Part shown: positions 16,315 to 48,018 of the stretch, piece after piece
How the letters are laid out: every line of letters begins with the position of its first letter
How positions within the stretch are numbered: position 1 is the stretch's first letter
DNA from: Leeuwenhoekiella polynyae
Lineage (GTDB): Bacteria; Bacteroidota; Bacteroidia; Flavobacteriales; Flavobacteriaceae
DNA: 64,000 nucleotides
Direction of reading: 5' to 3'
Assembly (NCBI RefSeq): GCF_004104075.1
Contig: NZ_QOVK01000004.1
Location: 62,001 to 126,000 of the forward strand
Translations under genes and position numbers: made by a program
The notes under the pieces: model-generated
Told to the model about the DNA's origin: nothing
Seen by the model: the letters and a program-made list of their open reading frames with translations, nothing else
The model's database searches: none

Positions 16315-16346
16315 TTTTCAATTTTAAAACCAACTCGATTCGCTTG

Positions 16347-16472
16347 ACACCGCGTGAGGGATAGTAGTGGAAATCCTTTAGGAGCGCGAGCGACTAAAGA
16401 TTGCAACGGATAGCCCGGCCCGAAGGGCACGCCCTAAATAAAAAAACCTGCAGCAGATTGCTACAGGTTTTT
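16347..16472 (+). ncRNA. Structured repeat RNA motif (Flavo-1-like), ending in a terminator
   Basis: The segment GAGGGATAGTAGTGGAAAT / CCTTTAGGAGC / GACTAAAGAT / GCAACGGATAGCCCGGCC / CGAAGGGCACGCCC (16356-16434) recalls a recurrent structured element of flavobacterial intergenic regions, which I associate from memory with the Flavo-1 motif. Visible pairings are ATCCTTTAG with CTAAAGAT, and GCCC-GAA-GGGC. The hairpin plus T-run at 16441-16472 follows directly on the same strand and could terminate it. The name is recalled rather than verified. Confidence 0.5.
16441..16472. terminator. Bidirectional terminator hairpin (acyl-CoA dehydrogenase / RNA motif)
   Basis: AAAAACCTG-c-AGCA-gat-TGCT-a-CAGGTTTTT forms a long stem with A and T tracts on both sides. 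It lies 32 bases beyond the stop of the - strand fad operon and right after the + strand RNA motif. Confidence 0.85.
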
Positions 16473-32431: not shown

Positions 32432-32881
32432 CTATTTATTATTTTTACGCTTCTTGTATTCTTCCCACAGTTTCTTTCCAAACTTATGTTCTGCTTCTGG
32501 AAGAAAAACCATTTTTGAAGCAGGTAATTTTTTTGCTAAATCATCCATCAACTCACTCTCTAGCTGGTACTTTCTTTTTATAATGTCTTTATATTCAGTC
32601 ATTAATTTTTCAGATTCTTTTTCAGAAAGGTTATTTTTAGAACCTGATTCTGAAAATTTCTCTTGAAATAAAGCACGTTCCCGAATTCGCAAATCGTTCA
32701 TAGCATTATCATAGACATTGTAAATAGGCCAAAATTTTTCGGCTTCGGCTGGGGTTAATTCTAACTCTTCAGTTAAAAAAGGAACTTTTAATGCTTTTAT
32801 ATGTTCGTGTCGGTCTTTTTTCTGTGCATTTAAAGAAAAGCTAAGGCCTAGAACTAATAATATAATTATGTTTTTCATCAT
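32432..32881 (-). CDS. Small secreted protein of the ECF-sigma module
   Basis: This 149-residue protein has a clear signal peptide (IIILLVLGLSFSLNAQ). The mature part is highly charged and helical, with LELTPAEAEKFWPIYNVYDN at about residues 40-59. That motif is common in flavobacterial periplasmic sensor-type proteins and loosely like the Spy/CpxP LTxxQ proteins. It follows the sigma gene and the single-TM protein within 15 bases and ends at a strong terminator, so the three form one operon. A periplasmic partner or sensor for the ECF system is an inference. No enzymatic motif is seen. Confidence 0.78.
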   Translation of the reverse strand: MMKNIIILLVLGLSFSLNAQKKDRHEHIKALKVPFLTEELELTPAEAEKFWPIYNVYDNAMNDLRIRERALFQEKFSESGSKNNLSEKESEKLMTEYKDIIKRKYQLESELMDDLAKKLPASKMVFLPEAEHKFGKKLWEEYKKRKNNK

Positions 32882-32895
32882 CGTTTTTCTAAAAT

Positions 32896-33387
32896 TTATT
32901 GGTCAGCTAATGAACTTTGAATAATGTCTTGATCTACATATTCATAAATGATTTCATCAGTAACAACCTGATCATCAAAAATGGAGGTGTTATTCTCTAT
33001 AGTGCTCAATTCTTCTGCTGAAAAGTAATCTTGAAGACGCTCTTCATCTTCAAAGAAGTTCTCTAGACTGGTAATACTCAGAGAGTCAAATTCCATCTCT
33101 TTATCAATAGGGTTCACTACATAAAAAAGGACTAAGAGTACAGCCGCAATGGCCGCAATACTACCTATAACTGTTTTAAAATTATAGTTAACCAGTTTGC
33201 CTTGTGGCTTATTTAATTGAATTATTGTTTTTTCGACCTGATCAAAATAATTTTCAGGTACTGTAAATCCATCGCTCTTTTTAGGAAAAAGCTGCTGAAA
33301 TTTAAGTTCAATCATCAGGCGCTCATCAAAAGACTCAAAATAACCTTGGGGTACATCAAACTGTTTGTTTTCTTTTTCGCTTTTCAT
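32896..33387 (-). CDS. Single-pass membrane protein, probable anti-sigma factor
   Basis: This 163-residue protein has a cytoplasmic N-terminal part with two similar segments (FDVPQGYFESFDERL and FTVPENYFDQVEKTI). A single transmembrane helix follows at about residues 71-90 (VIGSIAAIAAVLLVLFYVV), then an acidic extracytoplasmic tail. That is the usual topology of Bacteroidota anti-sigma factors encoded after ECF sigma genes, although the ZAS zinc motif (HxxxCxxC) is absent. It lies 30 bases downstream of the sigma gene. The call rests on position and topology and not on a recognised family domain. Confidence 0.75.
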   Translation of the reverse strand: MKSEKENKQFDVPQGYFESFDERLMIELKFQQLFPKKSDGFTVPENYFDQVEKTIIQLNKPQGKLVNYNFKTVIGSIAAIAAVLLVLFYVVNPIDKEMEFDSLSITSLENFFEDEERLQDYFSAEELSTIENNTSIFDDQVVTDEIIYEYVDQDIIQSSLADQ

Positions 33388-33417: not shown

Positions 33418-33936
33418 TTAATTGTCTGTAACGTATTCGGTTATCTTTTTAACAGCATAATGGTAATTTGCTTTGAGTGCTCCTTCTGAAGTACCTAGTA
33501 TTTCTGAAATCTCATTGTATTGCAATTCATCAAAATATTTCATTACAAAAACCTGTTTCTGTTTTGTAGGTAAAGTATCTATTGCCTGTTGTAATTTTAA
33601 CTGCGCTTCGTCTCCATTAAAATAAGGGTCACTTACTAAATTAGTTACTAAACTTTCGTGTAAATCTTCATTGCTAAGATGAGTCGTGCGATTCCTTTTA
33701 TTAATAAAGGTAAGGGTTTCATTAGTCGCAATTCGATATAACCAAGTATAGACCTGACTATCTCCTTGAAAATTATTTAAGTTCTTAAATACTTTTATAA
33801 AAGTATTCTGAAGCACATCATCTGTATCTTCATGTGAGATGACCATACGTCGTATATGCCAGTACAAACGTTCTTTGTACTCGCTAACGAGGTCTTCAAA
33901 CTTTAGACTTACGCTATGATCTTCTATACTATTCAA
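33418..33936 (-). CDS. ECF-type RNA polymerase sigma factor, TTG start
   Basis: This 172-residue sigma-70 family protein has region 2 with HEDTDDVLQNTFIKVFKNL (about residues 36-54) and YTWLYRIATNETL, and region 4 with LPTKQKQVFVMKYFDELQYNEISEILGTSEGALK (about 123-156). No ATG exists in frame before region 2, so the start appears to be TTG at 33934-33936, directly after a run of eight T on the coding strand. It heads a three-gene operon with a single-TM protein and a secreted protein. The target promoters are unknown, and no consensus housekeeping promoter is seen upstream. Confidence 0.92.
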   Translation of the reverse strand: MNSIEDHSVSLKFEDLVSEYKERLYWHIRRMVISHEDTDDVLQNTFIKVFKNLNNFQGDSQVYTWLYRIATNETLTFINKRNRTTHLSNEDLHESLVTNLVSDPYFNGDEAQLKLQQAIDTLPTKQKQVFVMKYFDELQYNEISEILGTSEGALKANYHYAVKKITEYVTDN

Positions 33937-34147
33937 AAAAAAGGTTGTTCTTTTTATTTAGAGAGATTGAATGCTTGCTTAATATTAAGACTGAGTCTTT
34001 GTTAAAAGGTTTAATCTTAGGTTATATAAAATATAGTTAAAAATAAATTCAAGGCTCAGTAGCTTAAATTAGTTTTAAGATATTATAATTTTAAACTCAA
34101 TAAAAACGATTAAAAACATATTTAATGTGACAAAATACACAAATTAG

Positions 34148-34178
34148 TTGTTTTTAATAAATATTGCATTTATATTTG
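34148..34178 (+). promoter_or_regulatory. Strong consensus promoter facing a gene-less stretch
   Basis: TTG at 34148-34150, a 20-base spacer, then TATATTTG at 34171-34178. Both elements match the Bacteroidota sigma-A consensus. The direction is +, away from the - strand sigma gene, and no protein frame follows before the terminator at 34312. Confidence 0.75.
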
Positions 34179-34183
34179 AAATG

Positions 34184-34342
34184 TGTTTAAGTAATTGATT
34201 GTTAATTAAGTTGTTGTAAATAATAAAACGAAAAGTCCTTTTTTGCCCCAAGTATTAAAGTTGCTTTAAGATCTTTAAGTTTTCACCCGACTAAAGAAAT
34301 TCTACAACAATAAAAATCCACATCGAAAGATGTGGATTTTTT
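34184..34342 (+). ncRNA. Candidate small structured RNA, unknown family
   Basis: Transcription from the promoter at 34148-34178 would give about 159 nt ending in the hairpin/T-run at 34312-34342. Perfect arms TTGTTGTA (34211-34218) and TACAACAA (34303-34310) could close a long stem directly before the terminator. The inner hairpin TTAAAG-TTG-CTTTAA is at 34255-34269. The only early ATG gives a five-codon frame. It is unassigned, and a 6S-like RNA is one possibility. Confidence 0.55.
34312..34342. terminator. Bidirectional terminator (candidate RNA / ABC transporter gene)
   Basis: AAAAATCCACATC-gaaa-GATGTGGATTTTTT is a 13-bp stem with a GNRA-type GAAA loop on the + strand and six T after it. 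It is also 78 bases beyond the ABC gene stop on the - strand. Confidence 0.88.
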
Positions 34343-34368
34343 ATTGGCACCGCCAAAAGGTTTAATAT

Positions 34369-34397
34369 CCGAGGCTTGCCCGAAGTAGTTTACTTAA
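34369..34397. repeat. Dispersed CTTGCC hairpin element, copy 2
   Basis: CCGAGGCTTGCCCGAAGTAGTTTACTTA lies just beyond the ABC transporter stop. It shares GGCTTGCCCGAAGTA and TTTACT with the copies at 32331 and 41391. Confidence 0.65.
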
Positions 34398-34419: not shown

Positions 34420-36243
34420 TTATTCAAACGACTGCATATCTACTAATTTCTTATAAGTTCCGTTAAGCGCAAGAAGTTCCTGATGTTTTCCTTGTTCTAC
34501 TATCTTACCGCGTTGCATTACAATGATTTGATCTGCATTTTGAATAGTTGATAAACGGTGTGCAATTACAATAGAAGTACGATTCATCATCATATTTTCT
34601 AGAGCTTTTTGTACCAGTCTTTCACTTTCGGTATCTAGCGCAGAAGTAGCTTCATCCAGGATCATTATCGGTGGATTTTTAAGCACGGCTCTGGCAATGG
34701 ATAAGCGTTGTTTTTGACCTCCACTTAATTTATTACCGCTATCACCAATATTAGTATCCAGTTTCAGTGGAAGTTCATTTACAAATTCCCAAGCATTGGC
34801 AATCTTAAGAGCATCTATAACTTCTTCATCACTAGCTTCCGGTTTGCCTAAAAGTATGTTGTTTCTTACGGTGTCATTAAATAAAATAGAATCTTGTGTT
34901 ACAAGACCCATTTGTGCACGCACAGACTCTTTTGAAAGTTCTTTTATATCAATGCCATCTAATTTTATAGAGCCTTCATTTACATCGTAAAAGCGCGTTA
35001 CCAGATTTGCAATCGTACTTTTACCACTACCACTTTGGCCAACCAGAGCCACTGTCTGGCCTTTAGAAACAACCGTACTAAAGTCTGTTAAGACATATTC
35101 ATCCTCATATTTAAAGGAAACATTTTCAATACGGACAGCATCATTAAATTCCTGAGCTTTTTGAGCATTAGGTAGATCCTTAATTGTAGTTTCGGTATTT
35201 AATACAGAAAGTATACGTTCTGCAGCAGCATTACCTTTCTTAACGCTATACGACGCTTTACTGATTTGTTTTGCTGGAGTAAGAATCTGGTAAGAAAGAC
35301 CTAAAAATGCTATAAACTGAGATGCCTCCAGAGATCCTTCAACAAGTACCATCTGACCACCATACCACAGAATCACTACGATTACAAAAATCCCTAAGAA
35401 TTCACTGGTGGGTGAAGCTAAATTCTGGCGGTTAACCAAACTATTAAGGATGGAGTTTAATCTGGATGTACTGTCTCTGAATTTCTTTCTAAATTGATTT
35501 TCACCATTAAAACCTTTTATAATCTTAAGGCTTGAGAGTGTTTCTTCTACTATAGAAAGAAAAGCTCCATTTTCTTCTTGAGCCTGATTAGATTGTTTTT
35601 TAAGAGACTTACCGATTCGTGAAATTATTATTCCAGAGATTGGTAAGAATATAAAAACAAATAGGGTGAGTTTCGGACTAATAACCAGCATCGTAAGAAT
35701 CGTGAAAATGATGGTTAAAGGTTCTCGCACAACCATTTCTAAAATAGAAAGGAAAGAACGCTCAACTTCGTTGACATCAGCGGTTATACGAGAGATAGTG
35801 TCTCCTTTTCTTTTTTCAGAAAAATAAGCAATAGGTAGTTCTAAAAGTTTGTCATAAATAGCATCGCGTACATCTTGCATAACACCATTTCGCAAAAAGG
35901 TAATGAAGAATGTAGCCAAATAACCAAAAATATTTTTTAAGAAAAATAATACTACTACGATACCACAAACAAGAACCAAGGCAGATAGCTCGTTATCTGC
36001 AACACGCTCACTCACCTGATAATAAAAGGAGTTGAAAGCATATTCTTTAATATTGCCCCAGCCTTCCCATACCGGAAGTTCTGTTACTCGCTTTTCTTTA
36101 TCAAACAGAATGTCAATAACGGGAATCAACGCTAGAAAGCTGAGCGTACTGAAAATAGCATACAGAATATTACAGACAATATTGAGAACCGCATATTTTT
36201 TATACGGCTTTGCAAATTGTAAAATTTGTTTAAAATAATTCAT
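34420..36243 (-). CDS. ABC exporter, fused permease/ATPase (MsbA/lipid-exporter-like)
   Basis: This 607-residue half-transporter has six N-terminal transmembrane segments and a C-terminal ATPase. The Walker A is GQSGSGKST, the signature is LSGGQKQRLSIARA, the Walker B is PIMILDEATSALD, and the H-loop is IVIAHRLSTI. Flavobacterial proteins of this type are usually annotated as lipid A or multidrug exporters. The permease motif SEKRKGDTISRITADVNEVE supports the MsbA-like group. It is transcribed alone, between the terminator of the phosphomutase gene upstream and its own at 34312. The substrate is not determinable. Confidence 0.92.
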   Translation of the reverse strand: MNYFKQILQFAKPYKKYAVLNIVCNILYAIFSTLSFLALIPVIDILFDKEKRVTELPVWEGWGNIKEYAFNSFYYQVSERVADNELSALVLVCGIVVVLFFLKNIFGYLATFFITFLRNGVMQDVRDAIYDKLLELPIAYFSEKRKGDTISRITADVNEVERSFLSILEMVVREPLTIIFTILTMLVISPKLTLFVFIFLPISGIIISRIGKSLKKQSNQAQEENGAFLSIVEETLSSLKIIKGFNGENQFRKKFRDSTSRLNSILNSLVNRQNLASPTSEFLGIFVIVVILWYGGQMVLVEGSLEASQFIAFLGLSYQILTPAKQISKASYSVKKGNAAAERILSVLNTETTIKDLPNAQKAQEFNDAVRIENVSFKYEDEYVLTDFSTVVSKGQTVALVGQSGSGKSTIANLVTRFYDVNEGSIKLDGIDIKELSKESVRAQMGLVTQDSILFNDTVRNNILLGKPEASDEEVIDALKIANAWEFVNELPLKLDTNIGDSGNKLSGGQKQRLSIARAVLKNPPIMILDEATSALDTESERLVQKALENMMMNRTSIVIAHRLSTIQNADQIIVMQRGKIVEQGKHQELLALNGTYKKLVDMQSFE

Positions 36244-47947: not shown

Positions 47948-48018
47948 TTTTAAGATTTTTTTAAATTGTATAAAAGCAACATGCACGTACTTCGCCAGAG
48001 GTTGGTTCTATGAGGCTG

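Follow-up and report, generated by a model that had tools for sequence, protein, structure and literature searches.

A predicted small regulatory RNA with C-rich loops beside an ECF sigma factor gene in Leeuwenhoekiella polynyae, very probably a member of an undescribed family in Flavobacteriaceae

Introduction

The CsrB, RsmY and RsmZ transcripts are non-coding RNAs with a controlled promoter and a short motif repeated in apical loops, and they are defined by several GGA loops that bind the CsrA/RsmA protein. The C-rich small regulatory RNAs (sRNAs) of Firmicutes, such as RsaE and the streptococcal csRNAs, use unpaired C-rich stretches to pair with Shine-Dalgarno sequences. In Bacteroidota, sRNA regulation is poorly understood; the phylum is not known to have a classical sRNA chaperone, and most of its members are not known to have the ribosome-binding signals on which sRNAs rely elsewhere. 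Flavobacterial mRNAs mostly lack Shine-Dalgarno sequences, and Flavobacterium psychrophilum has Rfp18, a structured sRNA conserved in the genus, one stem-loop of which is predicted to pair with metalloprotease and adhesin mRNAs (PMC9723704).

The window analysed here is a stretch of 64,000 nucleotides from Leeuwenhoekiella polynyae (GCF_004104075.1, NZ_QOVK01000004.1). It contains a predicted sRNA gene that adjoins the gene of an ECF (stress-type) sigma factor and that, judging from comparative sequence, very probably encodes a small regulatory RNA of an undescribed family spread broadly in Flavobacteriaceae. The motif of this C-loop RNA is C-rich (mostly CCCCAA) rather than GGA, and it occupies one or two loops; the family is therefore not assigned to CsrB/RsmY, as the shared loops are C-rich in all 33 units compared, while a sponge-like mode of working is a separate matter. 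RsaE and the csRNAs are alike by description in that they too expose unpaired C-rich stretches as probable contact sites; however, their Shine-Dalgarno targets are mostly absent from flavobacterial mRNAs in the cited report (PMC9723704). Rfp18 is likewise a structured flavobacterial sRNA and is set beside the C-loop RNA by description only (PMC9723704), whereas in a large genus that we guess to be Flavobacterium (g147) the sigma locus lacks the C-loop RNA in 12 of 12 genomes: the sigma gene is present in each, and no C-rich motif lies within 700 nt upstream of it. No title or abstract returned by searches of open-licence papers describes the C-loop RNA, Rfp18 being the nearest report (PMC9723704). 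The family, which may be related to Rfp18, appears to be new; its kind, structured trans-acting sRNAs with repeated loop motifs, is already known.

The locus and its transcript

The features of the locus, in window coordinates, are as follows.

32432..32881, minus strand: small exported protein of the sigma operon, with a signal-peptide-like N-terminus by eye; no Pfam/NCBIfam match.
32896..33387, minus strand: possible membrane anti-sigma protein, suggested by a single hydrophobic segment and by operon position; no Pfam/NCBIfam match.
33418..33936, minus strand: ECF sigma factor gene, divergent from the RNA (Sigma70_r2, Sigma70_r4_2, TIGR02937).
33986..34015, minus strand: ECF-like promoter of the sigma gene, ATTAAACC ... 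GTCTTA, read by eye.
34107..34139, plus strand: direct-repeat pair, CGATTAAAAACA and TGACAAAATACA, with a spacing of 21 bp; probable activator site, from the spacing comparison.
34148..34178, plus strand: promoter TTG-N20-TATATTTG, Bacteroidota sigma-A type, kept among congeners.
34183..34342, plus strand: predicted small RNA of about 160 nt, from fold, conservation, synteny and covariation.
34211..34310, plus strand: outer closing stem, arms 34211-34218 and 34303-34310.
34232..34267, plus strand: inner hairpin with the C-rich loop, from comparison and the predicted fold; core CUUUUUUGCCCCAAGUAUUAAAG at 34238-34260.
34284..34291, plus strand: second C-rich motif CACCCGAC, CCCRAC in six aligned copies.
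34312..34342, plus strand: intrinsic terminator, from the terminator scan, comparison and the letters themselves.
34420..36243, minus strand: MsbA-like ABC exporter gene, its 3' end toward the RNA terminator (TIGR02203, 512.7 bits, under the cut-off of 602).

A preliminary description of this DNA had proposed an orphan transcription unit with a promoter, closed stem and terminator, and its elements were recovered at the stated coordinates: the TTG-N20 promoter, the pairing arms TTGTTGTA and TACAACAA, and the terminator with its 13-bp stem and GAAA loop (34312-34341) and six T ending at 34342. Equally, the absence of a usable ORF holds (the longest within 34183-34342 has 8 codons, and the longest in nine congeneric copies have 4 to 17), and both flanking genes do lie on the minus strand. 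The promoter box TATATTTG, whose conservation had been named as a check, is kept in the six congeneric loci aligned. A sigma-70-style scan, which does not model the Bacteroidota promoter, gave 2 sites against 2.9 in shuffles, this promoter not among them. The TTG-N20-TATATTTG arrangement agrees with TAnnTTTG, the sigma-A box that has been reported at -12 to -5 in a flavobacterium (PMC9723704), and the start is therefore placed near 34183, giving an RNA of about 160 nt. The stretch 34184-34342 folds with a predicted energy of -35 kcal/mol; shuffled sequences average -19.6 (sd 3.3; z -4.67), and 0 of 200 were as low. The proposed inner TTAAAG-TTG-CTTTAA hairpin is present at 34255-34269 and yet is not kept in relatives (L005 breaks 2 of its 6 pairs); the larger predicted hairpin at 34232-34267, with GCCCCAA in its loop, suits them better.

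A search with Rfam/Infernal, also suggested at the outset, returned no family above its gathering cut-off at the locus or in 15 related loci. BTnc231 (RF04180) scored highest in a permissive search, reaching 29.1 bits where its cut-off is 80.4. The alignment to it is weak at the terminator and at a U-run toward the 5' end, with many broken pairs, and the match was set aside for its low score. The idea of a 6S-like RNA that binds RNA polymerase draws on the closed outer stem and large inner loop of the window species, and 6S-Flavo (RF01685) has a similar size range. However, RF01685 gives no match at this locus and finds the genome's own 6S-Flavo elsewhere (G000:C4:230763-230871), with 96.2 bits against a cut-off of 85, and the 33 units of other genera described below measure 75-154 nt and consist mostly of separate hairpins with no long closed stem; the 6S-like reading is thus extremely improbable.

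Conservation within the genus

A covariance model built from five congeneric copies detects the RNA in 10 of the 13 genomes of the genus, with no match in G007, G008 and G012; a second match in G011 (L048) has no C-loop and was dropped. All ten copies lie beside the divergent ECF sigma gene and eight have the ABC gene on the other side, while in two loci no ABC gene was found in a 20-kb stretch although the RNA is there. Since the sigma gene accompanies the RNA in all ten loci and the ABC gene does not, the RNA goes with the sigma gene by position; the suggestion that the unit belongs to neither neighbour therefore stands for the transcript and falls for the position. The core CUUUUUUGCCCCAAGUAUWAAAG is invariant but for one base in six copies, and the other four have GUCCCAA.

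In the alignment of the ten congeneric rows, five of which built the model, 94.1% of the cells are paired, against 48-54% for slid structures, and 11 pairs show double changes against 5.7 in shuffles (0 of 500 as high). Four of the five covariation measures exceed all 500 shuffles, and the fifth (further pair types) was reached by 38 of them. The outer arms, whose covariation had been named as a check, do covary (6 of 9 pairs with changes on both sides among the 10 sequences), while covariation is slight in the inner C-loop hairpin of this genus (a double change in 1 of 9 pairs). Conservation, synteny, the conserved promoter and the covarying outer arms strongly support a small regulatory RNA that is about 160 nt long and distinct from both flanking genes, and on such comparative grounds the locus is almost certainly a real sRNA gene.

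The constant place beside the sigma gene, together with a terminator hairpin that also scores on the minus strand, might suggest a cis element kept for its position, for example a bidirectional terminator and spacer between the ABC and sigma genes. Against this, a terminator needs no promoter, upstream repeats or conserved C-rich loops, the RNA is present in the two congeneric loci whose 20-kb stretches yielded no ABC gene, and Aquimarina loci hold two to three tandem units; a cis element is accordingly very unlikely.

The wider family in Flavobacteriaceae

Applied to a family sample, the first model matched 18 genomes, and the core was recognized only in G000, G003 and G146, the other 15 matching via the terminator; chance matches of a pattern search (L049-L051) were dropped. 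In two genomes of another genus, the same place is occupied by a shorter RNA that has UUUUUUUGCCCCAAGCA and, in the loop of a second hairpin, UUUUCCCCAA. For named relatives, loci were confirmed by alignment of the sigma protein, and the best 80 of 535 were fetched and searched with a motif-blind rule (a promoter, then a terminator within 200 nt). Of the 80 loci, 29 yielded units under this rule, 33 distinct ones in total and all in the same place beside the sigma gene; one unit (L091) was lengthened by hand before analysis. CCCCAA, CCCCCA or CCCCTA, a pattern chosen after viewing the units, occurs in 33 of 33, against 2.9% of 6,600 shuffled units. The rule found no unit in the remaining 51 loci, among them those of Muricauda, Maribacter, Zobellia and Kordia, and it missed L103, L113 and perhaps L074, where the RNA is visible by eye. 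The genera with the RNA under the rule include Salegentibacter, Christiangramia/Gramella, Gillisia, Zunongwangia, Aquimarina, Flaviramulus, Flavivirga, Seonamhaeicola, Hyunsoonleella, Tamlana, Yeosuana, Mariniflexile, Mangrovimonas, Lacinutrix, Dokdonia, Aureisphaera and Altibacter, and in Salinimicrobium it was recognized by eye. The Aquimarina loci hold two or three units in tandem.

A second covariance model, built from 11 copies, gave matches at E 0.001 or better in 86 of 299 family genomes and 73 of 236 genera; some of the weaker ones will be terminator-only, and the model misses the window genome itself, so that its counts are no family totals. Inspection of 50 matches (the best 30 and 20 weaker ones chosen by hand) placed 49 between the sigma and ABC homologues, and the remaining one (L236) proved to be the terminator of another gene, despite a loop reading CCCCAAA, and was dropped. 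CCCCAA, CCCCCA or CCCCTA is found in 46 of the 49 syntenic copies, the exceptions being L216 (CCCAAG), L219 (CCCCAU) and L232 (CCCCUC). Order-wide, 7 of 196 genomes matched: two matches are real, both within the family, and the five terminator-only ones (L238-L242) were dropped. The window copy shares with the family a sigma-A promoter, a terminator, a C-rich apical loop and the place beside the ECF sigma gene.

The C-rich loop and its stems

The constant part of the RNA across the family is the C-rich apical loop, mostly [G/U]CCCCAA and present once or twice per RNA, whereas the stems change. The loop is not strictly fixed, as four congeners and L216 have three C, L219 has CCCCAU and L232 has CCCCUC, and some members have a single CCCC loop (for example L097, L109 and L123). 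The predicted folds leave 47 of the 53 CCCC tetramers entirely unpaired, compared with 19% of tetramers in general.

The stems covary. The alignment of the second model comprises 49 copies in 46 distinct rows, with the 11 copies that built the model among them, and, being fitted to the model, it leans toward the structure; 98.4% of its cells are paired, against 42-60% in slid structures, 10 pairs show double changes against 3.8 in shuffles, and 0 of 500 shuffles were as high on any of five measures. An arm-swap test, which needs no alignment, used 73 distinct arm pairs around a CCCC loop from 79 units, the window genus left out: the mean duplex energy was -8.1 for the loops' own arms, against -4.4 (sd 0.27) for swapped arms. 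In eight members, all of the Salegentibacter/Gramella/Gillisia type, the arms of the first loop are weak (-1.1 to -4.5), and the better stem is that of the second hairpin. The C-rich loop is a probable contact site because it is the most constant exposed sequence of the RNA, and the loops are with high likelihood its active site.

Upstream repeats and control

Two direct repeats, TCGATNAAATGCA, precede the promoter with a spacing of 20-21 bp in 40 of 41 units, and in 39 of these 41 their end lies 41-42 nt ahead of the nominal start; the distance of 47 for the window copy arises because its nominal start was set further downstream, and in L077u1 a different repeat was chosen by the score. Repeat scores range from 18 to 24, while shuffles average 16.3 and do not exceed 19, with five of the 41 units in the shuffle range; the window copy scores 21, with a spacing of 21. 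The repeat pattern, with up to 3 mismatches, has 49 sites among 16 genomes, in 14 of these, against 0 for the reversed control, while in the window's own genome the pattern taken from its own repeat site occurs once with up to 2 mismatches.

Thirty of these sites were fetched (L151-L180). Five lie at the RNA locus (L151, L156, L160, L161, L162), and 11 rows, representing ten distinct genes, have the site 52-74 nt before a start codon and in the opposite orientation to the gene; by eye, nine of these ten genes encode products that start like exported proteins. The other 14 follow no constant arrangement: for ten of them the distance to an ORF start differs or site and ORF share one orientation, and for four no ORF starts within 260 nt. 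Pfam assigned two zinc carboxypeptidases (M14), one DUF4402 and one YadA-head protein (its site 90 nt away) among seven site-linked products and found no family for the other three. The TCGATNAAATGCA repeats are probably an activator site common to the RNA and some exported-protein genes, and the RNA itself is likely to be under activator control. The spacing of 20-21 bp would fit LytTR sites, and the activator may be a LytTR-type response regulator.

The sigma gene has its own ECF-like promoter on the other strand, at 33986-34015, which resembles the sigma-E consensus, and for that reason the link between the RNA and the sigma factor may be merely positional. Similar sequences precede the sigma gene in other genera by eye, and autoregulation of the sigma gene through this promoter is possible.

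Proposed mechanism and targets

Comparative sequence supports a sigma-A promoter with direct repeats upstream, an ORF-less transcript of 75 to 160 nt, hairpins with C-loops, and a terminator. The explanation that best covers the whole is the gene of a trans-acting small regulatory RNA, of an undescribed Flavobacteriaceae family, that acts via its C-rich loops (probability roughly 0.6). Specifically, an activator, perhaps a LytTR-type response regulator, would switch the RNA on, partly together with exported-protein genes, and this activator and sigma-A would produce the short RNA. The exposed C-rich loops would then pair with G-rich stretches of target RNAs and thereby change their translation or stability; as the main alternative for this last step, a protein would bind the loops. 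Trans action by way of the loops, in one of these two manners, is most likely, with about an even chance for base pairing and a smaller but appreciable one for protein binding.

Targets were sought in the RNA's own genome as near-complements of the core with up to 2 mismatches, and none was found. Besides the RNA itself there are 5, fewer than in the reversed control (11), and none is at a start codon; by eye, three lie inside ORFs (L182, L184, L185), L183 is a terminator that follows a purF-like gene, and L186 neighbours a tRNA-like stretch. Moreover, none of TTGGGG, TGGGGC or GGGGCA occurs from -60 to +45 of the 60 mechanical ORFs of the window.

Four loci (L083, L131, L135, L144) contain a companion RNA whose terminator has a G-rich loop, CUAAGCGGGGGCUG, identical on three different stems and complementary by eye to the GCCCC loops of the adjacent C-loop RNA. 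In three of the four, this loop can alternatively pair, by eye, with the companion's own first loop; in L135 the stretch neighbouring the companion is masked. The arrangement makes it possible that the companion is an anti-sRNA for the CCCC loops, and because of this G-loop RNA in four loci, RNA-RNA pairing is preferred over protein binding.

The C-loop RNA could conversely be a protein sponge of the CsrB/RsmY type, in which C-rich loops titrate an RNA-binding protein, for example a Bacteroidota RRM protein. Its similar short loops, frequently two to an RNA and borne on stems whose sequence is free, resemble the design of sponge RNAs such as CsrB and RsmY, the gene copies are in tandem in Aquimarina, and a controlled promoter would fit as well. 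On the other hand, some members have one CCCC loop only (L097, L109, L123), and the companion's G-rich loop suggests pairing between nucleic acids. A sponge is therefore a credible reading of lower probability than regulation of target RNAs by the trans-acting, loop-exposing sRNA.

Extending the trans-acting sRNA to a whole circuit is speculative and rather doubtful: in marine flavobacteria, one activator would drive both a set of exported surface proteins and peptidases and the C-loop sRNA, which would tune their mRNAs or a global RNA-binding protein, and in some genera the companion would be a natural anti-sRNA, its fixed GCGGGGGC loop silencing the CCCC loops by a kissing interaction. An sRNA that is widespread, syntenic and mostly present in one copy, whose loop hardly varies and whose activator site can be defined, would lend itself well to study as a model: its active residues are predicted by the loop and the regulator's site by the repeats, and the companion G-loop RNA offers a direct test of pairing.

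Additional observations

The terminator after the purF-like gene (by eye; L183, G000:C5 near 78619) holds GAUUUGGGGCAAAAAAGG, nearly complementary to the RNA core, and close to it stands ACATAAGTAGGTT, which is complementary to ACCUACUUAUGU, the 5' motif that other family members have; this complementarity is odd and probably due to chance. Directly 3' of the RNA terminator, at 34343-34390, lies a short dispersed repeat (GGCACCGCCAAAAGG ... CCGAGGCTTGCCCGAAGTAG), a 23-27-base piece of which recurs at many places in several genomes, with a longer version in the relative L002. Lastly, the window has two Rfam matches above cut-off, a Flavo-1 RNA at 16337-16424 on the plus strand and an L19 leader at 47977-48004 on the minus strand, and the dispersed repeat shares with the former only matches of 7-8 bases.
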